Made by a program: the position numbers and the translations under genes. Under the pieces are notes generated by a model. The model made no database searches. It had not been told where the DNA came from and worked only from the letters and a program-made list of their open reading frames with translations. Positions 156-15,499 of a stretch of DNA of 15,821 nt are shown in pieces. The stretch comes from Chloroflexota bacterium (GTDB lineage Bacteria > Chloroflexota > Dehalococcoidia > SHYB01 > JACPQI01). The DNA lies in NCBI GenBank assembly GCA_016190545.1, contig JACPQI010000109.1, positions 1 to 15,821 of the forward strand, given 5' to 3'. The first letter of the stretch is position 1, and each line of letters begins with the position of its first letter.

Positions 156-551
156 ATGCGCGTCTTTTTCGACGTCGATAACACTATTCTGGCCTGGGAC
201 AACAGTCTCCGCCCCCTCGTCCGCGAAGTCTTCCAGCGCCTCAATGCTGACGGCCACTCCGTCTTCATCTGGTCGGGCGTGGGCTTGCGCTGGGAGGTTG
301 TACGCACCCATCAGCTTGAGCAGTACATCGTCACCTGCTACGTCAAGCCCCTGGACAGGTACCACGAAAGCCTCACATCCCTCGGCATCACAACAACCCC
401 CGACTTCGTCGTGGATGACCACCCCGGCATCGTGGAGGCCTTCAGCGGCTATCTGGTTTCGCCGTACTATTTTACCAACCCCCACGACCAGGAGATGCTA
501 CGCGTCTACGAGGCCGTCGCCACGCGCTCCAATGGAACGGGCAAGCCATGA
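156..551 (+). CDS. Small HAD-superfamily phosphatase-like protein
   Basis: A 131-aa protein with the landmarks of the haloacid dehalogenase superfamily. Motif I is DVDNT at residues 6-10 (nucleophile Asp6, acid/base Asp8). Motif II is the Ser of FIWSG (about residue 40), Lys64 is a candidate motif III lysine, and motif IV is VVDDHPG (Asp87, Asp88). It lacks a sizeable cap domain, so a cytosolic phosphohydrolase of unknown substrate is the most that can be said. The stop TGA (549-551) overlaps the ATG of the next gene (ATGA), so translational coupling with the selenoprotein peroxiredoxin is likely. The ATG at 156 is the first in frame and follows the promoter closely. Confidence 0.8.
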   Translation: MRVFFDVDNTILAWDNSLRPLVREVFQRLNADGHSVFIWSGVGLRWEVVRTHQLEQYIVTCYVKPLDRYHESLTSLGITTTPDFVVDDHPGIVEAFSGYLVSPYYFTNPHDQEMLRVYEAVATRSNGTGKP

Positions 552-1012
552 GCGCCACTCTGGATGCAGGCCAGTCTGCGCCCGGCTTCATGCTGCCCTC
601 CACCCAAGGCCCCATCGTCCTCGGAGACTTGCTGCACCACTGGCGCGTGGTCCTGGCCTTCTATACGGAAGACCTCACGCCCACCTGAACCACACAGGTC
701 TCCTCCCTCGTGCAGGGCTATGACACCTTCAAGGAGCTGAACGCAGAGGTGGTGGCGGTCAGCGCCGACAGCCTGGAGGCCCACCAGCGGTTCGCCCAGA
801 AGCTGGGCGGCGTGCCTTTCCCATTGGCCAGCGACGCCAACCTGCGCGTCGCTCGGCTCTACGGCGTCGCTGACGAGGGGGCCAAGCGCGCCACCCGCGC
901 CGTCTTCGTCATCGACAAGGGCGGCGTCATCCTTCACGCCAACCGGCAGTACAGCCCCGGCAACCAGGGTCACTACCTGGAGATGTTCAAGGCGCTGGGC
1001 ATGGAGCAGTAA
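548..1012 (+). CDS. Peroxiredoxin (AhpC/TSA-BCP type), probable selenoprotein with Sec47 encoded by TGA 686-688
   Basis: Read through one in-frame TGA, this is a 154-aa peroxiredoxin of normal BCP-like length. It has the N-terminal GQSAPGFMLPS segment, then FYTEDLTPT, the TGA, then TTQVSSL, where the family has its peroxidatic Cys (as in DFTPxCTTE). Thr44 is the catalytic Thr three residues before, and Arg117 (RATRAVFVID) is the conserved active-site Arg. After the TGA the frame stays open through LASDANLRVARLYGV to a TAA at 1010-1012, with no other lesion. The protein contains no cysteine, so it would work as a 1-Sec enzyme needing an outside reductant. Thr40 replaces the usual Pro of the PxxxTxxC motif. 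The gene overlaps the HAD gene by 4 nt and precedes a flavodoxin-like gene. Sec forms of this family are known. A nonsense-mutated pseudogene is the alternative, but it is unlikely given the exact position. Confidence 0.9.
696..728 (+). promoter_or_regulatory. Candidate bacterial SECIS element of the peroxiredoxin gene
   Basis: Downstream of the TGA, AGGT (696-699) pairs with ACCT (725-728). After an internal loop, CCCT (705-708) pairs with AGGG (714-717) around the 5-nt loop CGTGC (709-713). The apical loop starts 21 nt after the TGA and has G in its second position. Both fit the bacterial SECIS rule: a small loop 16-37 nt downstream with a G in its first two bases. Confidence 0.65.
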
Positions 1013-1038
1013 CGCGCTGTGGAGATGAGGCCTGGGCC

Positions 1039-1539
1039 ATGACCACCATTCTCGTCCTCTACGATAGCCACGGTGCGGTGAAGGACCTGGCCGAGGCCAT
1101 CGCCGAAGGGGTGGGCAGTGTGCCGGGCGCAACAGCGCTATCACGCTCCGTCGACGCCGCGACGCGAGACGACCTGGTGAACGCAGACGGCCTCGTCCTG
1201 GGCTCGCCCAACTGGAGCGGGGTGACCGGCAGGATGAAGCAGTGGCTGGACTCCATCGGCGACGTGTGGCAGGAAGGCCAGATGACAGGAAAGCCGGGCG
1301 CCGCCTTCACCGCTGGCTCATCGCGCTCCGCCGGCATCGAGGCTACACTGCTGCAACTTATCCACTGGATGCTGGCGGGCGGCATGGTCATCGTGGGCCT
1401 GCCCTGGGACGAGCGCATGAAGCGTACCGGTTCCTACTACGGCGCCACCGTCTGCGGCACCGTCACGCTGGAAGATCGCGAGCTCGCACGGACTCTGGGT
1501 AAGCGCTTGGCGGAGACGGCCTTGCGCCTCAGGCGCTGA
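1039..1539 (+). CDS. Flavodoxin/WrbA-like FMN-binding protein
   Basis: A 166-aa single-domain flavodoxin fold. The N-terminus TTILVLYDSHGAVKDLAEAIAEGV is a beta strand followed by a phosphate-binding loop (YDSHG, residues 8-12). Residues about 51-66, LVLGSPNWSGVTGRMKQW, match the GSPNxxxxxxxxxKxFxD region of WrbA and related NAD(P)H-dependent reductases. TAGSSRSAGIEATLLQLIHWMLAGGMVIVG is the second flavin-contacting region. It probably binds FMN and carries electrons or reduces quinones in the cytosol. It lies 26 nt after the Sec-peroxiredoxin in the same operon, so it could supply its reductant; that is inference. Its 3' end overlaps the convergent hpnG-like gene by 11 nt. Confidence 0.85.
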   Translation: MTTILVLYDSHGAVKDLAEAIAEGVGSVPGATALSRSVDAATRDDLVNADGLVLGSPNWSGVTGRMKQWLDSIGDVWQEGQMTGKPGAAFTAGSSRSAGIEATLLQLIHWMLAGGMVIVGLPWDERMKRTGSYYGATVCGTVTLEDRELARTLGKRLAETALRLRR

Positions 1540-2284
1540 GCCAGTGCAGGAGGAAGGTGTCAAGACTGCGGAGGGCCTTGCGGCGGCGGCGGGCGGTCTG
1601 GCAGAGGGTGGGCCACTCCCATGGCCGTAGGGTGAACGATGCCACATCGACCGGCGAGAGCTTGCCGGAGTTGTCGGCGATGCGCAGGAAGCTGCGCGGC
1701 AGATTGTGGCTGGCGGCGTCCATCACCGCCCGCACATTGAGGCACGGCACCGCGCGCTCCCGGGCCGCCTGCAGCACCCAGAACGCCTCCATGTCAACGG
1801 CCTGAGCGCCCGAACCGCGGAACATGGCGCGTTTGTCAGCGCTGCGCACCACGAGCACGGGGCTACACGCCGTGCGGCCAGTGATAAACGGCACGCCCTT
1901 GTCTTTTAGCAGCGTTCGCGCCCGCTCTACCAGGCCCGCGTCGCAGGCCAGGGCTTGGCCCGACTCGACAAATCCGGCTTCATTCCGCCACTCCCATGCA
2001 CTCATCGTGGTGGACAGTGCCAGCATGCCCGGCTTGAGGTCAGGCGAGAGTCCACCGGCCAGACCTACGGTCAGCAGCGCATTCACGGAGTGACGGGCCA
2101 GAAGCGCCTCGATCGCCGCAGCGGCGCGGCGCGGGCCGACACCCGTGATGCAGACGAGCACTTCCTTACCGTTAACGGTTGCCGTAGCAGACCATCCATC
2201 GGCCACAGGCGTACGCGAGGAAGAGCCAAGCCTGCGGAGCAGGCCGCCGACCTCGAAGGGGAGCGCAGCAACGACAGCCAGCAC
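1529..2284 (-). CDS. hpnG: Hopanoid-associated nucleoside phosphorylase (HpnG-like)
   Basis: A 251-aa protein of the purine/uridine phosphorylase (MTA/SAH nucleosidase) superfamily. It has an N-terminal LAVVAALPFEV strand, a GVGPRRAAAAIEALL segment (about residues 48-62), LLTVGLAGGLSPDLKPG (about 70-86) and the nucleoside-binding VDMEAFWVLQAA motif (about 168-179). Known HpnG releases adenine from adenosylhopane to give the ribosylhopane or phosphoribohopane intermediate of bacteriohopanepolyol synthesis. The assignment rests on fold plus position: it starts 12 nt after hpnH on the same strand. The start is GTG (2284-2282); no upstream alternative exists, because hpnH ends at 2297. The stop is TGA. 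The C-terminus is rich in Arg and Trp. Confidence 0.75.
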   Translation of the reverse strand: MLAVVAALPFEVGGLLRRLGSSSRTPVADGWSATATVNGKEVLVCITGVGPRRAAAAIEALLARHSVNALLTVGLAGGLSPDLKPGMLALSTTMSAWEWRNEAGFVESGQALACDAGLVERARTLLKDKGVPFITGRTACSPVLVVRSADKRAMFRGSGAQAVDMEAFWVLQAARERAVPCLNVRAVMDAASHNLPRSFLRIADNSGKLSPVDVASFTLRPWEWPTLCQTARRRRKALRSLDTFLLHWLSA

Positions 2285-2296
2285 GCCGACCTAGCG

Positions 2297-3337
2297 CTAT
2301 CCGGCGACGGGAGCCGGCTCCTTAACGCCGGACGCCATCGTCAGCTTCACGGAGCGGATGAGGTTGCGGGCATCGGCCATCATGGCCAACACCGCACTCG
2401 CCTCGTAGCCGGAGTGGATCATGCAGTTCTCGCAGCGGGGGTCGCGGCCATAGCCGAACTTGTCCCAGTTTGTGGTCTGCAATAGCTCTTTGTAGCTGGC
2501 CGCCTGGCCCTCCGCCGCCATGACGTAGCACGGCTTCTGCCATCCCATGACGTTGCGGTTGGGCATGCCCCACGGCGTGCACTGGAGCTGGACATCGCCT
2601 TGGAGGAACCCCAGGTAAAGGGGTGTGTTGGTAAGAGGCCAGCGCCTCTTGTGCTTGAGGATCTCGCGGAAGAACTGGTGGGTGCGCTGCCGCTTGAGGA
2701 AAATGTCCTGGCGAGGGGCCTTCTCGTAGCTGTAGCCGGGCGAGACCATGATGCCGTCCACTTTGATGTCGAAGGTCAGGAAATCGAACAGAGCAATGAT
2801 GTCGTCGGGGTCTGTGTTATCGAACACTGTGGTGTTGGTGGCGATGCGGAAACAGGCGGCCTTGGCGGCCCGCATGCCGCTGACGGCCGTGGCGAACACG
2901 CCGTCGCGGCACACAGAGGCGTCGTGGGCCTTCTCCAGGCCGTCCATGTGCACGTCGATGGTGAGATAGGCGGAGGGCTTTAGCTTCGGCAGGGACCGCT
3001 CCAGCAGAATGGCGTTGGTGCAGAGATAGACGAAGCGCCCCCGCTCGACGAACCCGTCGATGATCTCGCCGATCTGAGGATGGATGAGCGGCTCGCCGCC
3101 GGCAATGGAGACGACGGGCGCGCCGCACTCTTCAGCGGCGTCCCAGCACTCCTGCGGGGTGAGCATCTTCTTGAGGATAGGCTCCGGGTGCTGGATCTTG
3201 CCGCAGCCAGCGCAGGCCAGATTGCAGCGCCACAGCGGCTCCAACATGAGCACCAGAGGGAACTTGTCCCGTCTTAGCACCTTCTGCTTCACCAGGTAGG
3301 AGCCAACTTTCACTGCCTGCTTGAGCGGAGGACCCAT
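2297..3337 (-). CDS. hpnH: Radical SAM adenosylhopane synthase HpnH
   Basis: A 346-aa radical SAM protein with the cluster motif CNLACAGC (Cys38, Cys42, Cys45) followed by GKIQHPEPIL, a signature of the HpnH family. SIAGGEPLIHPQI is the SAM-contacting GGEP motif. The N-terminus PLKQAVKVGSYLVKQKV and the C-terminal CENCMIHSGYEASAV also match the family. HpnH joins a 5'-deoxyadenosyl radical to a squalene-derived hopene to make adenosylhopane, the first committed step of extended hopanoid synthesis. The ATG at 3337 follows an AAAGAG-type ribosome site. The gene heads a two-gene operon with hpnG and is preceded by a clear -10 box. Confidence 0.92.
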   Translation of the reverse strand: MGPPLKQAVKVGSYLVKQKVLRRDKFPLVLMLEPLWRCNLACAGCGKIQHPEPILKKMLTPQECWDAAEECGAPVVSIAGGEPLIHPQIGEIIDGFVERGRFVYLCTNAILLERSLPKLKPSAYLTIDVHMDGLEKAHDASVCRDGVFATAVSGMRAAKAACFRIATNTTVFDNTDPDDIIALFDFLTFDIKVDGIMVSPGYSYEKAPRQDIFLKRQRTHQFFREILKHKRRWPLTNTPLYLGFLQGDVQLQCTPWGMPNRNVMGWQKPCYVMAAEGQAASYKELLQTTNWDKFGYGRDPRCENCMIHSGYEASAVLAMMADARNLIRSVKLTMASGVKEPAPVAG

Positions 3338-3339
3338 AG

Positions 3340-3519
3340 CAACTCTTTCTAGCGAAAGGAGGGGTACATCGCCTGCCTAGGTATCTGCGGCATTATACCA
3401 CGCCAGTGGGCGGGAATCAGCAAATACAACCGGTATCCAAGAGCATCCGGATCTGGACGGCCAAGAGCGGCGGCTACATCGGCTTCAACTACGAGTACGA
3501 GACCCTCATCCCGCGCTAA
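3340..3519 (+). pseudogene. Possible 3' remnant of an unrecognised gene
   Basis: A plus-strand frame is open from after a TAG at 3337-3339 to a TAA at 3517-3519. Its end reads SIRIWTAKSGGYIGFNYEYE, then TLIPR, which looks protein-like, and a strong terminator follows 25 nt later. There is no start codon, and the 5' part overlaps the hpnH promoter region, so at most the C-terminal end of a displaced gene remains. I do not recognise the family. It may be chance coding. Confidence 0.2.
3392..3420 (-). promoter_or_regulatory. Promoter for hpnH-hpnG
   Basis: On the minus strand a perfect TATAAT -10 box (3397-3392) is preceded, at 17 bp, by a weak -35 candidate CTGATT (3420-3415). The expected start near 3386 gives a leader of about 50 nt before the hpnH ATG. 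Confidence 0.55.
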
Positions 3520-3544
3520 CGAACGCGCACGCCTAAGAACGGAA

Positions 3545-3580
3545 AGCGGGGGAGGCGATGTTGCCTCCCCCGCTCCTTTT
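3545..3580. terminator. Strong bidirectional intrinsic terminator
   Basis: A perfect 12-bp stem, AGCGGGGGAGGC (3545-3556) with GCCTCCCCCGCT (3563-3574), has a 6-nt GATGTT loop. On the plus strand CCTTTTCC follows; on the minus strand TTTCCG follows. It most likely ends the minus-strand yedE-tusA-rhodanese-PCYCGC operon, whose last stop is at 3624. It could also end any plus-strand transcript from 3340-3519. Confidence 0.85.
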
Positions 3581-3623
3581 CCGCCACTATGGTACCCGTG
3601 GTGCTGCGGCTGACAACCTCACA

Positions 3624-4085
3624 TTACTGGGTCTGTTTTTCCACCGCGTACTTCTGGAAGATGAACCGCCGTATCTCCCAGAGACTCTTCCCCTCTTCTG
3701 CCATGCGTTGGGCGTCACGCGCCGTTCCCTGGCACACTGTTCAGAAGGATCCCATCGGCTCGTAGGAGACGCCTCCGGTGGGACTGACGGAGCGGACGAA
3801 GCAGTCCCGCGTGTGCCTGTGGCCGAGGGCGGCGCACCCGCAATAGCAGGGCACGCCTTGCAGCACCTCAGGGTGCTCCACCGCATAGCGGTAGAGCGCG
3901 ATCACGTTCTGGTCCGCCGCCTGCACGTAGTCGGGCAGGCCGGTCTCCCCGGCTGGCTCGCCACCCGCAGCGCTCGTTTGCAGGTACGCGATCGCCCCCA
4001 GCGCCACGAAGACGGTGCCCACTGCCAGTGCCGGGACCGCCATTCGGCGGGTCAGGCTGAACAATCCGCCACCCATTCTCTGCAT
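3624..4085 (-). CDS. PCYCGC-motif protein, probable selenoprotein with Sec115 encoded by TGA 3743-3741
   Basis: Read through one TGA, this is a 153-aa protein. Residues 14-36 form a signal or membrane anchor. The family motif PCYCGC is at 79-84, followed by GHRHTRDCF (88-96), then SYEPMGSF, the TGA (residue 115), TVC, and a basic helix ARDAQRMAEEGKSLWEIRRFI (122-142) before a TAA at 3626-3624. The TGA makes a UxxC motif (Sec115, Cys118) exactly where relatives have CxxC, and the EGKSLxEIR tail is typical of the family. It is probably a periplasmic or membrane-anchored redox or metal-binding protein. It is the last gene of the yedE operon, 14 nt after the rhodanese stop. As I recall, this family is annotated in databases as a (seleno)protein; that needs checking. 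Without readthrough only 114 residues are made and the second redox motif is lost. Confidence 0.88.
3699..3734 (-). promoter_or_regulatory. Candidate bacterial SECIS element of the PCYCGC gene
   Basis: On the minus strand a lower stem TGCCA/TGGCA (3734-3730 with 3703-3699) encloses an internal loop. An upper stem GGCG/CGCC (3723-3720 with 3714-3711) has a 5-nt apical loop CGTGA (3719-3715). The loop begins 22 nt after the TGA and has G second. The layout and the CGTG loop start are almost the same as in the peroxiredoxin element. Confidence 0.7.
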
Positions 4086-4099
4086 GGCTCTTCGCTGGT

Positions 4100-5086
4100 C
4101 TATTTTTCGATGGGGGTGGAGGTGTCGTTACCCCACTCCGCCCAGGCGCCGTCGTAGTTGCGGAACTTATCGTAGCCCAGTAGGCGGAGTGCGAAGTAGG
4201 AATGGGAGCTCCGCACCGCCGTCTGGCAGTAACCAACGATCTCCTTATCCTTGGACAGCCCGGCCTTCTCGTAGAGGGCCTTGAGGTCAGCGGCGGGCTT
4301 GATGGTCGGGACGCCATTTACTTCTGTATTGTTCTGGGTCCAGTTGACGTTCTTGGCCCCAGGGACGTGGCCGCCGCGCTGGGAGCGCACGTCCGTGCCA
4401 TCGTACTCAGCCGGTGAGCGGGCGTCCAGGATAAGGACCTTGCTGTTCTGGAGATTGGCTAGGACGTAGGCCTTATCGGCGAAGAGAGCCTCATTGGGAT
4501 GGGGAGTGTAAATGGCCGCTTGGACATCGGGCGTCTTGCGGCTCAGTTCACGCTCGTCCGCCTTCCATGCTGCGATGCCGCCGTTCAAGATGCTGGTCTT
4601 GGCGTGACCGAAGTATTCGAGGGTCCACAACAGGCGGCTGGCGCTCAGGCTGCTGCCTTCATCATAGATGACCACCTGGGTGTTGTTGCTCACGCCCGCG
4701 TTCGCCATCATCTTGGCGAAGTCGTCGGATGTGGGCAGCTCGTTGCCGATGTTGTTGCGCGTCGTGGCGAACTGGGCCATCGGCAGGTTCACGGCGCCCG
4801 GGATGTGGGCCTCTGCATACTGGGCGGTTGGCCGCACATCGATGACGCGCAGAGTGGCGACCTCAATGCGCGACGCCAACCAGGCCGTGTCGACAATCAG
4901 CTCCGGCCTGGCGAACCCGGCTGGCACCGGGGCCGAGCTTTTTCCTTGGGGGGCCGGTGTCGCCGTCGGGGCTGCTGCTTTGTCTTCGCTCCCGCCGCCG
5001 CAGGCGACTGCGAGCGCGGCGAGGGCTGCGGCCACGAGGGCCAGGGAGAAGAGGCGCAAGGGACGGAACATCATAAGCCGGTTCAT
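4100..5086 (-). CDS. Two-domain rhodanese (thiosulfate sulfurtransferase) lipoprotein
   Basis: A 328-aa protein from the ATG at 5086-5084, which overlaps the tusA stop (ATGA) and has an AAGGAGG site. An upstream extension to 5293 would only run antisense-like through tusA. The N-terminus has a signal with lipobox AVAC (Cys29) and a Gly/Ser/Pro-rich linker containing TATPAP. The first rhodanese domain (VIDVRPTAQYAEAHIPGAVNLP onward) has Asp in place of the catalytic Cys (IYDEGSSLSASR). The second has LDARSPAEYDG and the active loop CQTAVRS (Cys287), ending YDGAWAEWG. It probably carries sulfane sulfur from thiosulfate on the outer face of the membrane, supplying the neighbouring YedE and TusA. 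Rhodaneses can also bind selenium as a perselenide. Confidence 0.9.
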   Translation of the reverse strand: MNRLMMFRPLRLFSLALVAAALAALAVACGGGSEDKAAAPTATPAPQGKSSAPVPAGFARPELIVDTAWLASRIEVATLRVIDVRPTAQYAEAHIPGAVNLPMAQFATTRNNIGNELPTSDDFAKMMANAGVSNNTQVVIYDEGSSLSASRLLWTLEYFGHAKTSILNGGIAAWKADERELSRKTPDVQAAIYTPHPNEALFADKAYVLANLQNSKVLILDARSPAEYDGTDVRSQRGGHVPGAKNVNWTQNNTEVNGVPTIKPAADLKALYEKAGLSKDKEIVGYCQTAVRSSHSYFALRLLGYDKFRNYDGAWAEWGNDTSTPIEK

Positions 5087-5340
5087 TTGGCTTCCTCCTT
5101 TACCACGCTGGGACTTAATGTAAGCTTCCATTCGGCGGAGCGGACGCGCTCGATCTTCACGTCCCAGCCCAGCCGCACGGCTTCGTTGGGAATGGTGAGC
5201 AAGGCCGGTGGATGGTCGGTCAGCACCTCGATTACCTCGCCCGGTTTCGCCTTCTGCATCGCCTCCGAGGCCTTCATCATGGGGTAAGGACAAATCTCTC
5301 CCCGGACATCCAGCTTCTTCGCTTTGGCCGTTTCCGTCAT
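5083..5340 (-). CDS. tusA: TusA/SirA-like sulfur carrier protein
   Basis: An 85-aa TusA-family protein. The hallmark CPYP motif is at residues 17-20 (LDVRGEICPYPMMKASEAM), with Cys17 the persulfide-carrying residue. The rest (GEVIEVLTDHPPALLTIPNEAVRLGWDV) is the usual beta-alpha-beta fold. It accepts sulfur from a rhodanese or transporter and relays it in the cytosol. The start is the ATG at 5340-5338 behind AAGGGAGG; a TTG at 5370 is possible but overlaps yedE. It lies 22 nt after yedE and overlaps the rhodanese lipoprotein gene by 4 nt. TusA homologues next to YedE also occur in selenium-metabolising genomes, so selenium relay is an alternative role. Confidence 0.92.
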   Translation of the reverse strand: MTETAKAKKLDVRGEICPYPMMKASEAMQKAKPGEVIEVLTDHPPALLTIPNEAVRLGWDVKIERVRSAEWKLTLSPSVVKEEAK

Positions 5341-5362
5341 GCTTGCGCCTCCCTTTGCTCCA

Positions 5363-6607
5363 CTATCCAAGCTTCTTGATCAGCCGAACACCGACGAACG
5401 AGCCGACGAGCAACCCCAGGGCGAATCCCCAGGCATTGACACCCAGCGAAGGGGCGGCGGAGAAGAAGGCGCCCAATGTGCATCCCAGGGCCAGGGCCGC
5501 GCCATAGCCCATCAGGATGCCGCCAATGACGGCCTGGACATAGCGTTTGGGCTGGCGCGGCACCCGAATCTTGAACTCGCCCGCAAGGTTGGCGGCGACA
5601 AAGGAACCCAAGACAATACCCACGTTGATCATGGTACCGTGGGTAAGGCCCACGCGCTTCGTTTCCGCCCCGCCGATGTTGCAGGTGCCGCCGATGTCGC
5701 CAAGGCCGGTCAGGGCCCCCGGCGTCAAGCCCACCTCTTTGCTCCCCAGGTCCATCCAGCGGAACATCTCGCCGGTCACGCCCCAGGGGTGGGCGTAGAG
5801 GTACTCCAGGGTGTTGAGAAAGCCGAGCAGCGCCCCCGCCGCCAGCACCGGCCAGGCGTTTACGAACACCTTCTGGAGCAGCGTCTTCACCTTTGCGCCG
5901 AACGTATCTTGCGCTGGCGTCGCGTCCAGTTCCGGATCGCGGAATGCCCGTGCGGGGGAACGGCCCTCCCACCACAGCACGAGCAGGTAGGCCAGCAGCA
6001 GGCCGAGCAAGGTCAGGACGATGCCGCCGGACCAGCCTACATAATGGGGCAGCCAGATGCGCGGGGCGTAGGAGACGCTGGTGTCCCACCAAAAGCCCCA
6101 GGTACGCGATAGGAGGAAGAACCCTACCAGCACGCCGCCCAGGGCGACCAGGGAGCCGACATAGCCTTCTCCAACGCGGTACAGGCTGCCGGACAGGCAG
6201 CCGCCCGCCAGCACCATGCCGAAGCCGAAGAGCAGTCCGGCGACGACGGTGTGGAACCCCAGCGGCGCCACATTCGCCTCCAGCGGGTAGCGCCCGGTGA
6301 TGATGGTGGGGCTGAGGTTGTACATGGCGAGGGCAAAGCCCAAGGTGGCGACGGCCATGCCGAGCAGCACGGCGCGCATCACCCGGCCGTTGCGGAACAG
6401 CCACAAGTCCCTGAACGACGAGGCGAAGCAGAACCGGCTCCGCTGCAGCACAAAGCCAAAGGCCAGGCCGAACAGCCACATGACCACCAGGTCCGCTTGT
6501 CCTCGGTTCAAGACGTAGATGACCGCAGCTACTAGGAGCCCCAGGGCGCCTAGCCCAGCCTGCCTCAGCCACGAGCTGTCCCGCACCTGTCCTACCGCAA
6601 CAGCCAT
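5363..6607 (-). CDS. yedE: YedE/TsuA-family thiosulfate or sulfur transporter
   Basis: A 414-aa multi-pass inner-membrane protein with two YeeE/YedE (sulf_transp) halves. The repeated small motifs RSRFCFASSFRDL (Cys60), GMVLAGGCLSGSLYR (Cys137), GDIGGTCNIGGAETKR (about Cys309) and GAALALGCTLGAFFSA (Cys376) are the conserved cysteine loops that pass thiosulfate in characterised TsuA. The last strand ends with a basic VRLIKKLG. It starts the operon yedE-tusA-rhodanese-PCYCGC and is preceded by a leader with a terminator directly before its ATG. Members of this family found beside TusA and Sec genes have been proposed to take up selenium, which fits the four Sec genes here, but the sequence alone cannot tell sulfur from selenium. 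Confidence 0.92.
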   Translation of the reverse strand: MAVAVGQVRDSSWLRQAGLGALGLLVAAVIYVLNRGQADLVVMWLFGLAFGFVLQRSRFCFASSFRDLWLFRNGRVMRAVLLGMAVATLGFALAMYNLSPTIITGRYPLEANVAPLGFHTVVAGLLFGFGMVLAGGCLSGSLYRVGEGYVGSLVALGGVLVGFFLLSRTWGFWWDTSVSYAPRIWLPHYVGWSGGIVLTLLGLLLAYLLVLWWEGRSPARAFRDPELDATPAQDTFGAKVKTLLQKVFVNAWPVLAAGALLGFLNTLEYLYAHPWGVTGEMFRWMDLGSKEVGLTPGALTGLGDIGGTCNIGGAETKRVGLTHGTMINVGIVLGSFVAANLAGEFKIRVPRQPKRYVQAVIGGILMGYGAALALGCTLGAFFSAAPSLGVNAWGFALGLLVGSFVGVRLIKKLG

Positions 6608-6621
6608 CTGCGACTCCAGTC

Positions 6622-6652
6622 AAAAAGAAACCCCTCGAAGCAGATCGAGGGG
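6622..6652 (-). terminator. Intrinsic terminator immediately before yedE
   Basis: On the minus strand CCCCTCGA (6652-6645) pairs perfectly with TCGAGGGG (6638-6631) around a 6-nt loop, followed by the U-rich tract TTTCTTTTT (6630-6622). It lies only about 15 nt before the yedE ATG and points into the operon, so it can only make sense as a regulated attenuator. Confidence 0.85.
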
Positions 6653-6810: not shown

Positions 6811-6855
6811 TTTCCCTTATAAATACCATGCGGTTTGAGTGATGATAGTAGCAGG

Positions 6856-6977: not shown

Positions 6978-7005
6978 GAGGGGCACATCATTGCAGGGGT
7001 CACGC

Positions 7006-8377: not shown

Positions 8378-9373
8378 GTGCGTGCCTTTGTGACGGGGGC
8401 GACGGGCTTTGTGGGCGCCAACGTGGCGCGCGCCCTGCTGCGCCGTGGGCATCAGGTGCGGGCGCTGGTGCGGCCCGGTAGCGATACGAGAGCGCTGGAT
8501 GGCTTGCCCATCGAGCGGTGGCCTGGTAGCCTGAGTGACCGCGATGTCTTATGCGACGGCATGCGTGGCTGCGATACCGTCTTCCATGTGGCGGCCCTCT
8601 ATGAACTGTGGGGCGCTCAGTCCCGTCAGGTCTACGAGATCAACGTCAACGGCACGCTCCGGGTCATGGAGGCGGCTCTGGAGGCCGGCATCGGGCGCAT
8701 CGTCCACACCAGCTCCGTCGCCGCAATCGCGCGGCCCAGCGAGCCGAGCGAACTGGCCGACGAGACTTATGAGTGGAAGCGGCTGCGCGACCTCCCCGGC
8801 CACTATGAACGATCCAAGTTGTTGGCGGAGCGCGAGGTGTCGCGGCTGGTGAAGGAATGCGGCCTGCCGGCGGTCATCGTCAACCCCACCGCTCCTATCG
8901 GCGCCTTTGACCTGCGGCCCACCCCCACCGGCCGGATGATCGTGGGCCTGTTGACGGGCAAGGTCTGGGGCTATCTGGATGGCGGCATCAACATCGTAGA
9001 TGTGGAGGACGTAGCAGAGGGGCACGTGCTGGCCGCCGAGAAAGGCCGGGTTGGAGAACGCTACATCCTCGGTAATCGAAACATGACCTTCGAGGAGGTG
9101 TTCGGACTGGTCTGCAGTATGGGTGACAAGTCGCCGCCCGTTTTCAAAGCCCCCTACGGCCTGGCCCTGCTCACCGCCTACGTGGAGGAAGGCTTCCTTG
9201 GCAGCCTCCTGGCCCGCCGTCCTACCGCCACCATCGCCGGCGTCAAGCTGGCGAAGCAACGCATGTGGTTTGATTCCTCGAAGGCCGTCCGCGAGCTTGG
9301 CCTGCCCCAGTCCTCGGTTGATGAGACAATCCGCAAGGCGATCCTCTGGTTCCGCTTCAGGGGGCTGCTATGA
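8378..9373 (+). CDS. hpnA: NAD-dependent sugar epimerase/dehydratase, HpnA-like
   Basis: A 331-aa extended short-chain dehydrogenase. It has the GATGFVGANVARALL nucleotide-binding loop (GxxGxxG, about residues 7-13), then DTVFHVAALYELWG, SSVAAIARP with the catalytic Ser region, and YERSKLLAE (the YxxxK catalytic pair). The later blocks INIVDVEDVAEGHVLAAEKGRVGERYILGNRNMTFEEV are characteristic of the hopanoid-associated epimerase HpnA. The start is GTG with AGGAGGG just upstream; an ATG at 8365 is out of frame. HpnA is thought to act on sugar nucleotides for hopanoid head groups. It overlaps the following LLM gene by 4 nt. A related dihydroflavonol-reductase-like enzyme is the alternative. Confidence 0.8.
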   Translation: MRAFVTGATGFVGANVARALLRRGHQVRALVRPGSDTRALDGLPIERWPGSLSDRDVLCDGMRGCDTVFHVAALYELWGAQSRQVYEINVNGTLRVMEAALEAGIGRIVHTSSVAAIARPSEPSELADETYEWKRLRDLPGHYERSKLLAEREVSRLVKECGLPAVIVNPTAPIGAFDLRPTPTGRMIVGLLTGKVWGYLDGGINIVDVEDVAEGHVLAAEKGRVGERYILGNRNMTFEEVFGLVCSMGDKSPPVFKAPYGLALLTAYVEEGFLGSLLARRPTATIAGVKLAKQRMWFDSSKAVRELGLPQSSVDETIRKAILWFRFRGLL

Positions 9374-10284
9374 CACAGGGCTTGAAATTCGGCCTCAACC
9401 TGCCCATCCGCCGCATCCAGGAAGGCCGGGAAGGCCCCGCCTCTGACGTGATACTCGCCCTCGTGCGCCGCGCCGAGGAGCTGGGCTACGACGCCGTCGC
9501 CACCGGCGACCACATCGTGACGCCGGACCACTGGCTCTCCACTGCCGGCGAGGCCTGGTACGACCCCTTCGCCCTCCTGGGCTTCATCACCGCCGTCACC
9601 CATCGGCTTCGTCTTCTCACGGACGTGGTCGCACTGCCCTACCGCAATCCGTTCACCATCGCCAAGGCCGTCGCCAGCCTGGATCAACTCTCTCGCGGGC
9701 GGGTCATCTTCGGCGCCGGCTCGGGTTTCCTGGAGGCGGAGTTCTCCGCCCTCGGCATTCCGTTCCAAGAGCGGGGGCCCCGCACAGATGAATACCTGCG
9801 TATCATCAAGGAGCTGTGGACGAAGGAGGCCCCTTCCTTCCAGGGCCGCTATTACAGCTTCTCCGGCGTCAGGCTCTCGCCGCGCCCGCTCCAGAAACCG
9901 CACCCGCCTATCTGGATCGGCGGCAGCAGCCGCCGGGCGGTGCAGCGGGCCGTGGAGATGGGCGATGGCTGGGCGCCCTTCTCCGCCACGCCCCAGGAGG
10001 TGCGGGAGGCCCTCGCCTACGCTGACGGCCTCATGCGGGGGTGGCGCATCCACACGCGGCTGGACGTCGCGGTCCACCTGACGCAGGTCGAACTGCGATC
10101 CAAACGGCGCGACCGGGGCGGCCGCGCGCTCACCGGCGTCGCCGACCAGATTGGGGAGGACATCGCGGCCTACAAAGAGGCGGGCGCCACCTATGCTATC
10201 GTGGGGTTTGGAGGCCGCACTCTCCACGAGTTCCGGGAACACATGGAGGCCTTCGCCGCCCAGGTCATGCCGGCTTTCTTGTAG
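9370..10284 (+). CDS. LLM-class (luciferase-like, probably F420- or FMN-dependent) oxidoreductase
   Basis: A 304-aa TIM-barrel protein of the luciferase-like monooxygenase family. FGLNLPIR starts the first strand, RRAEELGYDAVATGDHIVTP (about residues 33-52) carries the usual Asp-His, RLRLLTDVVALPYRNPFTIAKAVASLDQLSRGRVIFGAGSGFLEAEFSALG (about 78-128) is the conserved barrel core, and PHPPIWIGGSSRRAVQRAVEMGDGWAP (about 179-205) is the cofactor-phosphate region. Families with this TxxLSRGR and PIWIGG pattern commonly use F420. The ATG overlaps the hpnA stop (ATGA), so the two are coupled. It ends 10 bp from the convergent transporter gene, with no clear terminator between them. Confidence 0.85.
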   Translation: MTQGLKFGLNLPIRRIQEGREGPASDVILALVRRAEELGYDAVATGDHIVTPDHWLSTAGEAWYDPFALLGFITAVTHRLRLLTDVVALPYRNPFTIAKAVASLDQLSRGRVIFGAGSGFLEAEFSALGIPFQERGPRTDEYLRIIKELWTKEAPSFQGRYYSFSGVRLSPRPLQKPHPPIWIGGSSRRAVQRAVEMGDGWAPFSATPQEVREALAYADGLMRGWRIHTRLDVAVHLTQVELRSKRRDRGGRALTGVADQIGEDIAAYKEAGATYAIVGFGGRTLHEFREHMEAFAAQVMPAFL

Positions 10285-10294
10285 GTGGGCCGTG

Positions 10295-11584
10295 TCAGGC
10301 CAGGCGTTGCGCCGCTCGGAGCGTGCTGCCGAGGCGCCGCGCGGCGGGGTGAGGGACCACGGCGCTCGCCGCCCGTAGTCCCCACCACACAGCAAGCCCT
10401 GCGCCAAGGCCCCAGGCAAGATTGCTTCCCGGTAACACGCTGACTACGGCAACTAGCATGGCGAGCGCCAGGTGCACTCTATTGGCTACGTTCGTGCCCA
10501 GAATCAGGTGCTGCCAGCCCACGTAGAGGAGCAAGGCCCCGAACATGGCGTAGGGGATGAAAGTCCTGATGGGGAGGGCGCTCTTGCCGAAGAGTAAAGC
10601 CACAGTGATAAGCACGGCCCCCATGAAGAGGGTAGCCGCAGGCGTCCGGGCGCCCAGCTTATAGTGGGCGGTGAGCCCACCGCTGCCGTGGCATATGGGC
10701 AGGCCGCCAAGAAGACCCGCCCACAGGTTGCCCAACGCGATGCTCAAGGAGATGCGTCGGGGGGTGACGCGGGCCGCCTGGGGCCCGAAGTACACGGTGG
10801 CGGCGTCCACCGTGGCAAACACCGAGTTGGTGAGGGTGAGAGCGATTTGGGGGATCACCAAGAGCGTCAGCGCTGTGCTGAAATCGCCTGCTGAAGGGAA
10901 TGCCGGATTGATGGCGAGAGGGCCGAGGGCCGCGCCTTCGAAGGACTTCCATCCGCCCAGGCTGAGGCCCACGGCAGCGCCCACCGCCAGGACGAGGACG
11001 GTGGCGGGGAGCCGCTTCCAGCGCAGGGCAAGGAGCAACAGGGCGATGCCGAGCAGGCCAATCAGCAGTCCCAAGGGAAGCGATACGCCCGCCACCTCCA
11101 CAAGGCGTCGATCACCACCGATGAAGAAGGGCCGTGACCACAGGATGAGAACGCCGGTCTTGAGCAAGAGAAACCCCAGGCCCATCTGCACGCCACGGAT
11201 GAGGGGCGCAGGAATAGCGACGGCGAAGAGGTTGATGAGGCCGGTCGTGGCGAGGAACCCCAACGTCGCCGACATGAGCAGGGCGCCGGCGGCGATGACC
11301 GCTGGCGCCAGGTGCTGGGCGACGGCGATGACGGCGAGGGCTTTGAGCGGCTGCACCGGCATGGGAATCCTGAAGTAAAGCCCGGCCAAGATGTAGGCGA
11401 TGCCCACGCCCAGCAGCGTGGTGGTGGGGTTGAGCCCGTTGATGGCGATGAGAGCGACTTCCAGCGGAACCAGGACGGACAGATCAGCCAGGCCACCGCT
11501 GATCTCAGAGCGGCTGAGGCGCCATGAGTGCGGCTCGGGCTCGCTTCCCAGCCCTGCGTTGGCCCTATTCGCAGCGTGTCGCAT
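10295..11584 (-). CDS. MOT1-family molybdate/sulfate transporter
   Basis: A 429-aa membrane protein with about 10-12 hydrophobic segments. The motif GGLPICHGSGGLTAHYKLGART (about residues 292-313) is the MOT1 hallmark (PxCHGxGGLxxxYxxGART), and the N-terminal block SGGLADLSVLVPLEVALIAINGLNPTTTLLGVGIAYILAGLYFRIPMPVQPLKALAVIA is the first MOT1 repeat. Members take up molybdate or sulfate-like oxyanions across the inner membrane. The gene is monocistronic here. The start ATG is at 11584, and a short N-terminal tail precedes the first membrane segment. A possible extended -10 (TGCTATGAT, -10 at 11661-11656) lies upstream on the minus strand. Confidence 0.88.
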   Translation of the reverse strand: MRHAANRANAGLGSEPEPHSWRLSRSEISGGLADLSVLVPLEVALIAINGLNPTTTLLGVGIAYILAGLYFRIPMPVQPLKALAVIAVAQHLAPAVIAAGALLMSATLGFLATTGLINLFAVAIPAPLIRGVQMGLGFLLLKTGVLILWSRPFFIGGDRRLVEVAGVSLPLGLLIGLLGIALLLLALRWKRLPATVLVLAVGAAVGLSLGGWKSFEGAALGPLAINPAFPSAGDFSTALTLLVIPQIALTLTNSVFATVDAATVYFGPQAARVTPRRISLSIALGNLWAGLLGGLPICHGSGGLTAHYKLGARTPAATLFMGAVLITVALLFGKSALPIRTFIPYAMFGALLLYVGWQHLILGTNVANRVHLALAMLVAVVSVLPGSNLAWGLGAGLAVWWGLRAASAVVPHPAARRLGSTLRAAQRLA

Positions 11585-11742
11585 TCCCTGTGTCTTCTAC
11601 TTTCGTACCCAGGTCTTCCAGGTCGCCAGCGCCGCTCTGAGGTTTATGCGACCTCATCATAGCACGCTTTATCTGCACGACGTCCTTCTCGGCTGCCGTG
11701 CGCAAAATTCTGAAAAACTTCCCTGTGTCACTATAGATATTT

Positions 11743-11771
11743 GTTGAACTTTGTTTAATAATTAGTTCAAC
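11743..11771. promoter_or_regulatory. Inverted repeat, possible operator before the alpha/beta hydrolase
   Basis: A perfect 8-bp inverted repeat, GTTGAACT (11743-11750) and AGTTCAAC (11764-11771), is separated by a 13-bp spacer of only A, T and one G. It lies 38 bp before the hydrolase ATG in an unusually AT-rich stretch, with TATAGA at about 11732-11737 as a possible -10 just upstream. The layout fits a dimeric repressor site. Confidence 0.5.
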
Positions 11772-11809
11772 TCGCCCGTCCAGGCGTGACCAGCAGAGGA
11801 GGGTGTAGC

Positions 11810-12592
11810 ATGCCCAAGGCCACCATCAATGGCATCGAGCTCTACTACGAGGTGCATGGCAGTGGGCCTACCGTGGTGTTCTGTCATGGGGCCAGCGGGA
11901 GTCATCTGAGCTGGTGGCAGCAAGTGCCTGACTTCTCTAAGTACTATCGCTGTATCACCTACGACCAGCGTGGCTTCGGCCAGTCCCTCGACGCCCGGAA
12001 CGGCTCCGGCGCCAAGGCCCTCGTCGATGACCTGGACGGCCTGCTTCTCCACCTCAACATCCGCGAGATCCACCTGGTGTGTCAGGACCTGGGCGGTTAT
12101 ACGGGCATGGGTTTTGCGCTCAAATATCCGAGCCGGGTGAAGAGCCTCACGCTCTCCGGGAGCCACGGCTGGATCATCGATCAGGACACGATTGCCAAGG
12201 CCTTGCGCGCTCGCAACAACCACAAGAACCGGGAAGGCGACCTGATGAGCCTTTCCGTGTCCAGCCGGCTCCAGCGGGAGCGTCCTGCCGTCGCGTTCCT
12301 CTTCAAGCAAATCGCGGGCCTCAACCCCACCCTGTCACGGGACTACTTCCAGCGCATTCCGGCCTCGCCGCCGCCTCGCGTGCTCCTCAGCAAGCTCATC
12401 TTCCCCACACTCTTCGTGGTGGGCGAAGAAGATGAAATGACCCCGCCCGAAATCGTTGAGGCGGCGCACCGTCAGCTCCTCAATTCCATGGTGTACCGAG
12501 TGCCGGGCAGCGGCCATTCGTCCTACTTCGAGCGGCCTGAGCTGTTCAACCCGCGCGTCCTCAGCTTCGTCGACCAGCCGGTGCGGATCTAG
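11810..12592 (+). CDS. Alpha/beta hydrolase with an Asp nucleophile (epoxide hydrolase/dehalogenase type)
   Basis: A 260-aa alpha/beta-hydrolase. VVFCHGASGS carries the oxyanion-hole HG (residues 26-27), and ITYDQRGFGQS is the conserved DxRGxGxS strand (50-59). The nucleophile elbow reads VCQDLGGYTG, so the nucleophile is Asp93 instead of Ser, as in epoxide hydrolases and haloalkane or fluoroacetate dehalogenases. The acid is probably Asp208 (VVGEEDEMTPP) and the base His236 (GSGHSSYF). The ATG at 11810 is chosen because a GAGGAGGG ribosome site sits just before it. It is cytosolic, with no signal peptide. The substrate is unknown. An inverted repeat upstream suggests it is regulated on its own. 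Confidence 0.85.
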   Translation: MPKATINGIELYYEVHGSGPTVVFCHGASGSHLSWWQQVPDFSKYYRCITYDQRGFGQSLDARNGSGAKALVDDLDGLLLHLNIREIHLVCQDLGGYTGMGFALKYPSRVKSLTLSGSHGWIIDQDTIAKALRARNNHKNREGDLMSLSVSSRLQRERPAVAFLFKQIAGLNPTLSRDYFQRIPASPPPRVLLSKLIFPTLFVVGEEDEMTPPEIVEAAHRQLLNSMVYRVPGSGHSSYFERPELFNPRVLSFVDQPVRI

Positions 12593-12665
12593 GCCTTCAC
12601 CCAGCCAGCGTAGCCCTTTCGACGGGACGTGTCGCGCCGTTGACTGCGGCTGATGCGACGAACAC

Positions 12666-14273
12666 ATGAGAGTGCTTCCCTTTCTCACCGCCAGCGATAC
12701 GAAGAGTCCGGGTCGCCCAGTCTCATGTGAACTGGAGATAGCGCTTGTGCTCCTGCAGGTGCAGCGGGCAGGGCAGCGGTCTCACGCGCTTTTCCAACGA
12801 AAACTCATTGAGCCGCCCCTTTTTGTCGCCCGGCTGTTCTGGCCTTTCTATGTGCTTGAGCGAGCGGACGGGCAAGGCTCCGTGGTGATGGACGGCTTGG
12901 GGCTGTTCAACCACCATGTCACCTATTCCACCGTCTCGCAGTGTGACCACTTCGAAAGCGACCTGGCTAAAGCACTTCGCTCAAACATTTCCCCCTCCGC
13001 CTATCTCGAAGTCTTGAAGGTCCACGCTACCACCTTCAGAAGTCCCAACGGTGCCATAGACTACTCGCTCCACGGCTACATTGCCGATGACGGTCTGGTC
13101 TCGGGCCTGTGCGATTACGCCAAGGCAAGCCCAGAGGTGGAGAGCCTGCCGGAATCGGCGGCGCTGTCGCCCCGTATAAGTCCCGAGGCGGCAAGCACTG
13201 CGGTCTGCATCTTCTCCCAATTGGTCAAAGAGACGTCGCGAAAAGATGTCAAGCGTCTGGAAACGGTAGGGAATCTCCTGGGGGAGGCCACGGCCTACTG
13301 GATGACGCGCGTTGAAGAGGAGCAACTCCAGGCCGGGAGAGCATACAGCGAGCGCATCGCTCATCTGCGTCCAGAGATTGAGGAAGCAGTGCAACAACGT
13401 GATGAGTCGATGCGGGAGGAGGTGGCCCTGGTGGAGGAGCGGTTCGCCCCGCTGGTCGCTGATTTGAAGGCTGAGGTCGCTCGATGGGAGAGTGAGGCCC
13501 GCCAGTGGAAAGACAAGGGAGGCGCCTACGCCAAATCGCGCAGCAGCGCGGAGCGCGCCAGGAGCGCGTCTGCGGGTCGGCTGGCCAATGTGTTGGCCCA
13601 TCGCGACCGAGAGATATCTCGGGTTGTAGAGCATGTGAGTCACCTTACGACGCAGGAATGGCGCCGCGTGTCCGATATCGAAAAGGAGAAGGACCAGGCG
13701 GTGCAGGAGCTAGGCAGAATAGGCGAAAGGCTCACCACGTTCGCAACCCAAATCGGCAACGACATCAATCGATTGATTTCCGCTAAGCAGGCGTTTGTGG
13801 AAAGTATGGAGGATGCGGGAGCCGGCTTTCCACGGCAGTTTGACTCCAGTCCCCGCAGCGCGGTCATGGTCCATGTGCCGTTCTGGGTGGCCGCGCTTGA
13901 CGCTCGGCCAGACCACAGGTTGTTGCTGCTCCTGCCGAGCGTTGTAGACCAGTCAGTGAATCGACTGGGGAGAGCGTTTCGTCTGTTCTGGCAGCCAGCG
14001 CTGCCGGTGAGGCCGCGCACAAAGCGCTTTGAGCAGGTACTGAAGCGGACTCTCCAACAGGCGGCAACGACGGACCAGTCCCTCATGCAAGAGCTGATGG
14101 AGAAAGGCTTGCGGACGAACGTGTTGGAGGACCGCTCGACAGAAGCCACCTGCCGGAGCGGCCTGCGGCGCCTTCTGGAACTCGGGCGGATCAAAGCCCA
14201 TCAAGCTGAGGAAGTCATCAGTTCTCTCGCCGCTCAGCCCGTCGGCGCGCCGACCGATAGCGCGGTTGCTTAG
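12666..14273 (+). CDS. Hypothetical coiled-coil protein
   Basis: A 535-aa protein that I do not recognise. Residues 1-190 look globular, with LFWPFYVLERADGQGSVVMDGLGLF as a hydrophobic core. Residues about 195-375 are rich in Glu, Arg, Ala and Gln and strongly helical, a probable coiled coil (for example EEEQLQAGRAYSERIAHLRPE and EKEKDQAVQELGRIGERL). Residues about 395-440 return to a hydrophobic strand-like stretch (AVMVHVPFWVAALDARPDHRLLLLLPSVV), followed by a helical C-terminus. There are no membrane segments, signal peptide or nucleotide-binding loop. The start at 12666 is uncertain because its ribosome site is weak. The gene stands alone, 73 nt after the hydrolase, and converges on the DUF411 gene. 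Confidence 0.6.
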   Translation: MRVLPFLTASDTKSPGRPVSCELEIALVLLQVQRAGQRSHALFQRKLIEPPLFVARLFWPFYVLERADGQGSVVMDGLGLFNHHVTYSTVSQCDHFESDLAKALRSNISPSAYLEVLKVHATTFRSPNGAIDYSLHGYIADDGLVSGLCDYAKASPEVESLPESAALSPRISPEAASTAVCIFSQLVKETSRKDVKRLETVGNLLGEATAYWMTRVEEEQLQAGRAYSERIAHLRPEIEEAVQQRDESMREEVALVEERFAPLVADLKAEVARWESEARQWKDKGGAYAKSRSSAERARSASAGRLANVLAHRDREISRVVEHVSHLTTQEWRRVSDIEKEKDQAVQELGRIGERLTTFATQIGNDINRLISAKQAFVESMEDAGAGFPRQFDSSPRSAVMVHVPFWVAALDARPDHRLLLLLPSVVDQSVNRLGRAFRLFWQPALPVRPRTKRFEQVLKRTLQQAATTDQSLMQELMEKGLRTNVLEDRSTEATCRSGLRRLLELGRIKAHQAEEVISSLAAQPVGAPTDSAVA

Positions 14274-14288
14274 CGCATCGTACAAGGG

Positions 14289-14777
14289 CTAATAGCTGCC
14301 GAACAGCGTCGTGCTCTGTTGTCCCCAGGCGTAAACGTCGAGCGGCCCTGCTTTCTTCCCTGGCATCCCGGGCGATCCCTCAGGCATGCCCGGCAGAGCG
14401 ATACCTGTAGAAGCAGGGCGTTCCGTCAGCAACAGCCGTATCGCCTCGACCGGCACGTGACCCTCAACAACGTAGCCCCCAACGAGGGCGGTGTGGCAAC
14501 TGCGCAACGTCTCCGGGACTCCGTAGCGGTCCTTCACTGCGATGAGATCGGCTTCTCGTTGCACCTTGCCGGTGAAGCGCTGCTGTCTCAAGTACGTACC
14601 GTACTCGTCGCAACACCCTCAGGTCGGCGGTTGGTAGATGACCACTTGGGTAGCCTCTCCCTGAGCAACCGAAGACTGGGTCGCAGGACTAGGTGACTGG
14701 GTTCGCCCCGCACTACCGCTTATCACGGCGATGAGGACAAAGGCTGTGGATATGAGCAAGCCGAAGCGCAGTTTCAT
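14289..14777 (-). CDS. DUF411/CopG-like protein, probable selenoprotein with Sec53 encoded by TGA 14621-14619
   Basis: Read through one TGA, this is a 162-aa DUF411 protein. Residues 1-24 are a signal peptide or anchor (MKLRFGLLISTAFVLIAVIS), then comes a Ser/Gln/Pro linker, VVIYQPPT, the TGA and GCCDEYGTYL. The TGA falls on the first Cys of the family's CGCC motif, giving U53-G-C55-C56. The rest is textbook DUF411: VKDRYGVPETLRSCHTALVGGYVVEGHVP (Cys94, His95), RLLLTERPASTGIALPGMPEGSPGMPG, stop TAG. The ATG at 14777 has an AAGGAG site. Characterised DUF411 proteins (CopG) are periplasmic copper-resistance proteins whose cysteines bridge a copper cluster. It is 80 nt downstream of the Sec-UGSC gene, probably in one operon. 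Starting after the TGA would lose both the signal and the metal motif. I know of no described Sec form of DUF411. Confidence 0.85.
14589..14607 (-). promoter_or_regulatory. Candidate bacterial SECIS element of the DUF411 gene
   Basis: On the minus strand CGAGTAC (14607-14601) pairs with GTACTTG (14595-14589) over 7 bp including one G-T wobble. It has a 5-nt apical loop GGTAC (14600-14596). The loop begins 19 nt after the TGA and has G in both of its first two positions. Confidence 0.7.
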
Positions 14778-14857
14778 CCGCTGCTCCTTGGGACACCGAT
14801 GGTCGCTATCGCTTTCTCAATAATAGCGGGAAGCAGCGCCAGGGTGTGCCGCAGAGC

Positions 14858-15499
14858 CTATTGCCCGTGCGGCAGGGAACAGGCCAGGACGCCCTCCTCC
14901 GGCTGCGGGAAGCTCTTGGAGCGGTACTCCTTCGCCAGTTCCTCCGCCGGCGCCGTCAGCACCCGCTCGATCTCCGGCAGCAGCGCTTCAGCGGCGGCGC
15001 TTACGCCCGCGGGCGTAAGGGTATCGAAGGGATGGGGCGCCGCCAGGATGCACAGGCCCTCCAGGCCCAGAGATTCAGCGGTGTCTCGCCCCATGTCGGC
15101 GAAGCCCGTCGTGCTGACCACCGCCGCAGGCACGCCCCACCGCTCCAGCCGCACTCCTGTGTGGGCACCCCACACCACGCACCCTCAGTGGCCCACCCCC
15201 ACCACGGCGGCGTCGCACCTCTTGGCCGCCTCTTGCAGCGTCTCGCTCTCCACCGGCGCTTTCGCCTTGCGCGTCAGGTCGTAGCCGGCGCCGGTGTTCG
15301 TCTGGCGGTACACGATGGCGGCGACGCCGTGCCGCTCCATAAGCAAGGAACCGACCGTCTCCAGGAACAGCGTCGCATTGGGGACCTGGTTGTCGAACAG
15401 GCCCACAGTGGCGCCGGACAGCTCCCCTTTGCGGCGGGCCAGATGGTGGCGCTCTTGCCTCCGGTCGCCGATGGGGTCCAGAATGACGAACTCTGCCAT
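14858..15499 (-). CDS. UGSC-family protein, probable selenoprotein with Sec105 encoded by TGA 15187-15185
   Basis: Read through one TGA, this is a 213-aa protein; without readthrough it looks like two separate genes in the same frame. The N-terminal half (FVILDPIGDRR; LSGATVGLFDNQVPNATLFLETVGSLLMERHGV; CDAAVVGVGH) ends at the TGA, followed by GCVVWGAHTGVRLERWGVPAAVVSTTGFADMGR. This is the layout of the UGSC family, whose Sec or Cys follows a VVGVGD-like strand. Here the motif is U-G-C and not U-G-S-C, one residue shorter. The function is unknown; a thiol-redox or nucleotide-related role is possible. The ATG at 15499 has only a weak GGGA site. A promoter lies just upstream, and DUF411-Sec follows after 80 nt. 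Its upstream neighbour is a probable LLM oxidoreductase. Confidence 0.87.
15159..15175 (-). promoter_or_regulatory. Candidate bacterial SECIS element of the UGSC gene
   Basis: On the minus strand GTGTGGG (15175-15169) pairs perfectly with CCCACAC (15165-15159), a 7-bp stem with a GTG triloop (15168-15166). The loop begins 17 nt after the TGA and has G first. Of the four candidates this has the strongest simple stem. Confidence 0.72.

Follow-up and report, generated by a model that had tools for sequence, protein, structure and literature searches.

Selenocysteine predicted at four in-frame TGA codons in a Chloroflexota contig, one of them in a CopG-like gene

The stretch of DNA considered here is the first 15,821 nucleotides of contig JACPQI010000109.1 from a Chloroflexota bacterium (assembly GCA_016190545.1), hereafter the window. 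Four of its genes, unrelated to one another, each contain a single in-frame TGA codon, and comparison with related sequences leads us to predict, with a probability of roughly 0.93, that all four are translated as selenocysteine (Sec, U). The genes are an AhpC/TSA peroxiredoxin (Prx), a member of the PCYCGC family (PF13798), a DUF411 gene whose product is, by fold and sequence, the copper protein CopG, and a member of the UGSC family. The Sec reading is supported by the alternation of TGA and Cys at the same codon in relatives of each gene and, for UGSC and PCYCGC, by covariation in the Sec insertion sequence (SECIS)-like hairpin downstream. An initial annotation, made from the nucleotide letters, had already interpreted the four codons as Sec, and its interpretation is strongly supported by this alternation and covariation, and by the finding that most relatives with the TGA also have the elongation factor SelB and tRNA-Sec. 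Three of the four genes belong to known selenoprotein families (UGSC, PF13798, which is OS_HP4, and the TxxU peroxiredoxins) and extend them. Gene callers cut such genes, as in the Thermomicrobium roseum plasmid NC_011961.1 (PCYCGC, locus L091) and the Acidovorax sp. T1 plasmid (UGSC, L089), where annotated coding sequences end at the same TGA though homology continues beyond it.

Four reading frames opened by one TGA each

The peroxiredoxin gene occupies 548-1012 on the forward strand, with its TGA at 686-688 (predicted Sec residue 47, within a TPTU motif of the TxxU type). The remaining three are on the reverse strand: the PCYCGC gene at 3624-4085 (TGA 3741-3743, residue 115, UxxC), the DUF411/CopG-like gene at 14289-14777 (TGA 14619-14621, residue 53, UxCC; N-terminus leader-like by eye) and the UGSC gene at 14858-15499 (TGA 15185-15187, residue 105, motif UGC). 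On translation the four codon positions given by the initial annotation proved exact, and the frames on either side are as clean as it had described, with no internal TAA or TAG, so that each gene is open only if its one TGA is read through. The read-through proteins all score above their Pfam cut-offs (PF00578, 106.9 bits; PF13798, 84.5; PF04214, 86; PF24696, 136.6). Coding sequence of a single family flanks each TGA on both sides (for DUF411 the Pfam match covers sequence downstream of the TGA, and alignment supports the upstream part), and GC content at third codon positions (GC3) stays high downstream of all four, at 0.72-0.92.

Elsewhere in the window TGA acts as a stop, since it terminates eight genes (HAD, flavodoxin, hpnG, tusA, VOC1, phhB, hpnA and MOT1, exactly the eight listed by the initial annotation) while the four candidates end in TAA (Prx, PCYCGC) or TAG (DUF411, UGSC). 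A genome-wide change of code, with TGA read as Trp or Cys, would likewise open the four frames, but it is at odds with these eight TGA stops, on which ground we reject it, as the initial annotation had done for Trp. Against it also are the 54 other Cys codons of the window, which are TGC or TGT, and the small hairpin with a GU-bearing loop that follows four of four internal TGA codons and none of the eight TGA stops; such a change of code is barely credible here.

TGA and Cys alternate at conserved positions

The initial annotation placed each TGA on a conserved Cys column and proposed aligning these columns with homologues; the alignments locate a Cys/Sec position in all four families. The counts of U and C that follow omit locus L115, which has CGA, and L098, where the TGA lies one codon earlier than in the automatic pairing; L159 duplicates L160.

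Alignment of the peroxiredoxin with solved structures and relatives places its TGA at the peroxidatic Cys column, which holds Cys in 5enu and 5ovq and Ser in 3drn. A scan of 35 chosen genomes returned 60 matches, 24 with TGA, and of the 25 of these 60 that were aligned, 10 have U at the column and 15 have C. The nearest homologue, in genome G300, is 52-53% identical and uses Cys. The window gene adjoins a flavodoxin/WrbA-like gene (the pair spans 548-1539), and G300 has the same pair (L202; 53% and 58% identical) in reversed order, with a Cys peroxiredoxin.

A set of 301 Chloroflexota genomes gave 36 PCYCGC matches, spread over 32 genomes; 14 of the matches carry one TGA. Twenty of the 36 were aligned, and seven more TGA-bearing matches joined the hairpin survey below. 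U-x-x-C and C-x-x-C occupy the same column, with U also in Thermomicrobium roseum and with one Arg. In L115 (G225, 1501-1812) CGA stands at the Sec column and the CGUGA hairpin is intact, so that TGA looks to have changed recently to CGA, by mutation or through faulty assembly, while the SECIS stayed in place. The only hits of a database search with the PCYCGC protein were the window's own fragment and another that stops before the Sec position.

UGSC genes are present in 20 of the 301 Chloroflexota genomes, and each of the 40 matches has at least one internal TGA (five also have a second stop). In the alignment, which took in 12 of the 40, the column is U in 12 of 12 Chloroflexota loci and in the Acidovorax sp. 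T1 plasmid, and C in three haloarchaeal plasmids. Ten of the matches, each with an internal TGA, lie in a single genome (G153; L094 and other places) and are a lineage expansion of the UGSC selenoprotein. Searches with the UGSC protein gave no relatives among 338 stretches from a contig collection and, in a protein database, 1363 candidates of which none reached E 0.001, probably because the database entries for its relatives stop at the TGA. An AlphaFold model of the UGSC protein alone has a pLDDT of 54.

The TGA of the DUF411 gene replaces the first Cys of the CxCC motif. That position is Cys in all 39 homologues aligned, from 120 listed among 3840 found, and in the phylum sample DUF411 occurs in four of 301 genomes, always with Cys. 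The class of genome G293 contains the gene in six of 343 genomes, with seven matches, and in three of these genomes (G557, G560 and G550, all Chloroflexota loci) TGA is found at the same codon. G550 has tandem DUF411 genes (C107, L160/L198), which at the first CxCC position have TGA in one copy and Cys in the other. Across the 40 aligned rows C55, C56, C94, H95, H107, M131 and M138 are invariant.

SECIS-like hairpins

According to the initial annotation a small-loop hairpin begins 17-22 nt after each TGA. The hairpins are indeed there, but the spacing needs correction, with loops starting 20 nt (Prx), 21 nt (PCYCGC), 19 nt (DUF411) and 16 nt (UGSC) past the TGA. They are CCCU[CGUGC]AGGG at 705-717 on the forward strand (Prx; a 4-bp stem, the weakest of the four) and, on the reverse strand, GGCG[CGUGA]CGCC at 3711-3723 (PCYCGC), CGAGUACG[GUA]CGUACUUG at 14589-14607 (DUF411) and GUGUGGG[GUG]CCCACAC at 15159-15175 (UGSC). 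An Rfam scan of the window gave a tRNA alone above threshold, and no SECIS-like match at E <= 10.

A simple GU-loop rule (a stem of at least 4 bp with a GU-bearing loop of 3-6 nt, 15-24 nt downstream), chosen after the sites had been viewed, picks out all four Sec codons of the window, 292 of 4257 other codons and none of the 54 Cys codons, a result above chance level. If a 5-bp stem is demanded, DUF411 and UGSC alone pass, against a background of 99 of 4257 codons. Over the window and its relatives together 33 of 44 Sec sites have such a hairpin downstream, as do 5 of 40 Cys sites, counts that include related sites under a rule set post hoc, so that no P value is claimed. The separation is clearest in UGSC (13 of 13 Sec sites against 0 of 3 with Cys) and PCYCGC (15 of 16 against 1 of 15).

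In these two families the hairpins also covary. The Sec sites of UGSC have in common a small G-U loop some 19 nt past the TGA, and those of PCYCGC, the window's included, a CGUGA loop at 21 nt (CGGGA in one case). Over 12 distinct UGSC sequences, six of seven pairs show compensatory change, 91.7% of cells are paired, and none of 500 shuffles reaches the covariation score (three reach the number of further pair types); over 11 distinct PCYCGC sequences the figures are three of six pairs, 93.9% and again none of 500. The alignment segments (A3 and A4) were anchored on the loop by hand, which favours the structure. The motif of the window's UGSC gene (15173-15190, reverse strand) is UGC, one residue shorter than UGSC, and its loop is 3 nt nearer the TGA than in most relatives; the spacing of 16 nt is explained by the one codon missing between.

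These results bear on the possibility that the genes are pseudogenes or sequencing errors, that is, four nonsense changes in decaying or misread genes. A single TGA per gene is compatible with this, but all four fall on conserved Cys columns while Cys makes up just 54 of the 4257 other codons, and the initial annotation likewise called four random nonsense mutations, all at catalytic Cys codons, very unlikely. Opposed to it as well are the SECIS covariation in two families and the open frames and high GC3 beyond each TGA. We reject decay or misreading because the same codon is TGA in relatives, and regard it as very improbable.

Sec machinery in the relatives

SelB scores above its cut-off in 47 of 54 genomes and tRNA-Sec is matched at E <= 1e-9 in 32 of 38; among the TGA carriers, sorted out by hand, the proportions are 28 of 31 and 29 of 32, respectively. 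The stricter tRNA-Sec threshold, which matches three of 14 controls, was used for the counts, a scan of 16 HpnH genomes at E 0.001 having also caught other tRNAs (14 of 14 controls were matched). The TGA carriers in which SelB is not above its cut-off are G233, G275 and G145, the last with a SelB piece at a contig start; G233 and G275 are outside the tRNA-Sec scan of 38 genomes. tRNA-Sec was not matched in the carriers G557, G145 and G249, nor in G162, G230 and G009 among the genomes without TGA. All three genomes with Sec-DUF411 have SelB, G557 barely (245.1 against 242.25 bits). In G162 and G230, whose DUF411 has Cys, neither SelB nor tRNA-Sec exceeds the cut-offs, although G230 has a SelB piece of 121.8 bits at a contig start.

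Points that weigh against Sec

Several observations count against the Sec reading. SelB presence does not discriminate the TGA carriers, as it is also found in 19 of 23 genomes without a TGA match in the UGSC and PCYCGC scans (tRNA-Sec in three of six others), and G557, a Sec-DUF411 carrier, has no tRNA-Sec match at E <= 1e-9. The relatives are distant, with best identities of 38% (UGSC), 49% (PCYCGC), 54% (DUF411) and 52% (Prx). By folding energy alone the DUF411 hairpin is the single one to beat 200 shuffles (z -3.48, reached by 0 of 200), those of Prx, PCYCGC and UGSC giving z of +0.47, -0.54 and -0.09. Peroxiredoxin SECIS evidence is weak, since the GU-loop hairpin follows two of 11 U sites and two of 15 C sites, which makes the test uninformative for that family. 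In DUF411 the hairpin follows three of four Sec and two of seven Cys sites, the Sec relative L160 being without it, and in PCYCGC 62 of 500 shuffles reach the observed count of further pair types. Finally, the published bacterial SECIS (bSECIS) geometry, given in the available text of PMC13188914 as a loop of 3-9 nt, a stem of 4-16 bp, G in the first two loop positions, a spacing of 16-37 nt and a minimum free energy (MFE) of at most -7.5, fits all four window sites but is permissive: background codons pass in 2355 of 4257 cases (55%) in its loose form and in 1450 (34%) in its strict form, and all three haloarchaeal Cys UGSC sites also have the strict geometry.

How the four proteins would be made

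If the four codons do encode Sec, decoding would follow the usual bacterial pathway: SelB, attached to the SECIS hairpin just downstream, would bring Sec-tRNA(Sec) to UGA. The cell from which the window derives would then possess selA, selB, selC and selD and would make all four proteins: a TxxU Sec peroxiredoxin, a UxxC Sec PCYCGC protein, a member of the UGSC family and a Sec-containing version of CopG, a copper oxidoreductase. The Sec PCYCGC gene would stand at the end of a likely YeeE-TusA-rhodanese operon for sulphur (or selenium) trafficking, and in CopG the first of the copper-binding Cys residues in CxCC would be replaced by Sec.

A candidate CopG selenoprotein

CopG is described, in the portions of PMC7558416, PMC8456105 and PMC12428095 that are available, as binding a tetranuclear copper cluster and having copper redox activity; in the first of these the cluster is held by the CxCC motif and two Met residues. 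The window protein has the CopG fold and scores well above the Pfam cut-off of 27 bits, retaining C55, C56 and both Met, with TGA as the first codon of CxCC. It is conceivable that a branch of Chloroflexota DUF411/CopG proteins is selenoproteins in which Sec replaces the first copper-binding Cys and supplies a selenium ligand to the copper cluster, a tentative proposal that we hold at a little below even odds.

Of 3840 DUF411 proteins 120 were listed, and the sole sequence among these shorter than 122 residues is the window's own 100-residue fragment; none of the others thus resembles a product truncated at this TGA, and in that set the Sec form is either rare or not represented. Neither PF04214 nor DUF411 is named in the main text of the 2026 catalogue of prokaryotic selenoproteins (PMC13188914), and in a literature search, which left most subscription papers and all supplements outside its reach, neither name occurred alongside 'selenoprotein'. 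Sec-CopG, as predicted from these alignments, would be a selenoprotein family missing from that catalogue and new as far as these searches reach. If the proposal is right, it would represent a new kind of Sec use, in which a multi-copper cluster rather than a thiol is tuned, and naturally occurring Cys homologues, including the tandem copy in G550, would make the effect of Sec on the cluster directly testable.

Four predicted selenoprotein genes in 15.8 kb

The initial annotation suggested that the density of Sec genes might mark a Sec-rich genome or a selenoprotein island, the latter being a mobile or co-regulated cluster. Four such genes in 15.8 kb are indeed more than expected: with 63 genes, the largest count in the available text of PMC13188914 (for one metagenome-assembled genome), spread over an assumed 3 Mb, the Poisson probability of at least four is 3.9e-4, and a gap of 80 nt separates the UGSC and DUF411 genes, which share a strand. 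Against this, the window was selected for its apparent density, and the four genes are on two strands in what the layout suggests are at least three transcription units, with ordinary metabolic genes between them. In relatives, other window genes were not seen beside PCYCGC in 15 loci, save one weak hpnA-like match, nor were other Sec genes seen beside DUF411, Prx or hpnH in eight loci or beside hpnH in eight more; flanks of the UGSC loci extend to about 1.5 kb, so UGSC neighbourhoods were little tested. We consider an island unlikely and, as the neighbourhood is not shared among the relatives examined, reject it, attributing the cluster to chance in a genome that uses Sec. Co-transcription may link the UGSC gene with that of DUF411.

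Neighbouring genes

Directly upstream of the PCYCGC gene, at 4100-6607 on the reverse strand, are genes for a YeeE/YedE-type sulphur transporter (PF04143), TusA (PF01206) and a rhodanese (PF00581). Neighbours among these four genes overlap by 4 nt or are separated by 14 and 22 nt, so they likely form one operon, and 3624-6607 is possibly an operon for the trafficking of sulphur or selenium. None of 15 PCYCGC loci from relatives showed this gene order. The TusA protein has 85 residues, with PF01206 at 8-75, PF10006 below its cut-off and no DsrE match.

The window as a whole has a GC content of 0.636 and contains 19 clear genes, a tRNA-Pro(GGG) at 22-98 and the end of another frame. HpnH (2297-3337) is 59-61% identical to proteins of 12 genomes from one class, in the phylum of G009, and its best identity is 56% among the best 80 of at least 581 confirmed relatives in the contig scan. 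The source lineage is therefore likely to be distant from the Chloroflexota genomes sampled. A 535-residue protein encoded at 12666-14273 on the forward strand is charged, coiled-coil-like by eye and matched by no Pfam family.

Comparison with known systems

The window's UGSC protein belongs to a family known to contain selenoproteins (PMC2398784 and PMC13188914, as far as their text is available). It exceeds the Pfam cut-off of 25 bits and shares the Sec position and the GUG-loop hairpin of its Chloroflexota relatives, but it differs in having UGC in place of UGSC, a His residue preceding Sec (Asp in most relatives), a hairpin 3 nt closer and an NF041046 score of 96 bits, below the cut-off of 125. 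The PCYCGC protein resembles the CYCXC family OS_HP4 (PF13798, UxxC), tabulated as a selenoprotein in the same catalogue, in its Pfam family (cut-off 25 bits), its translated PCYCGC motif, its UxxC at the same column and the CGUGA loop of its Chloroflexota relatives; it differs in scoring 59.3 bits against the NF041379 equivalog cut-off of 90, and in its location behind YeeE, TusA and rhodanese genes. Those neighbours recall the selenium-linked YedE/YedF genes in that a YeeE/YedE-type transporter gene adjoins a TusA/SirA-like gene, but YedF combines SirA-like and DsrE-like domains (PMC5322559, available part) and the window TusA, SirA-like without the DsrE-like domain that marks YedF, is not a YedF. 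The peroxiredoxin matches the TxxU selenoproteins of PF00578, tabulated in the available part of PMC13188914, in carrying TPTU with the Sec codon at the peroxidatic position, and departs from them in its weak hairpin and in having a Cys-type protein as its nearest homologue. The DUF411 protein shares with CopG (PF04214; PDB 6wis and 6wje) the thioredoxin-like fold and the invariant Cys, His and Met residues, and differs in the TGA, predicted to encode Sec, that stands for the first Cys of CxCC.

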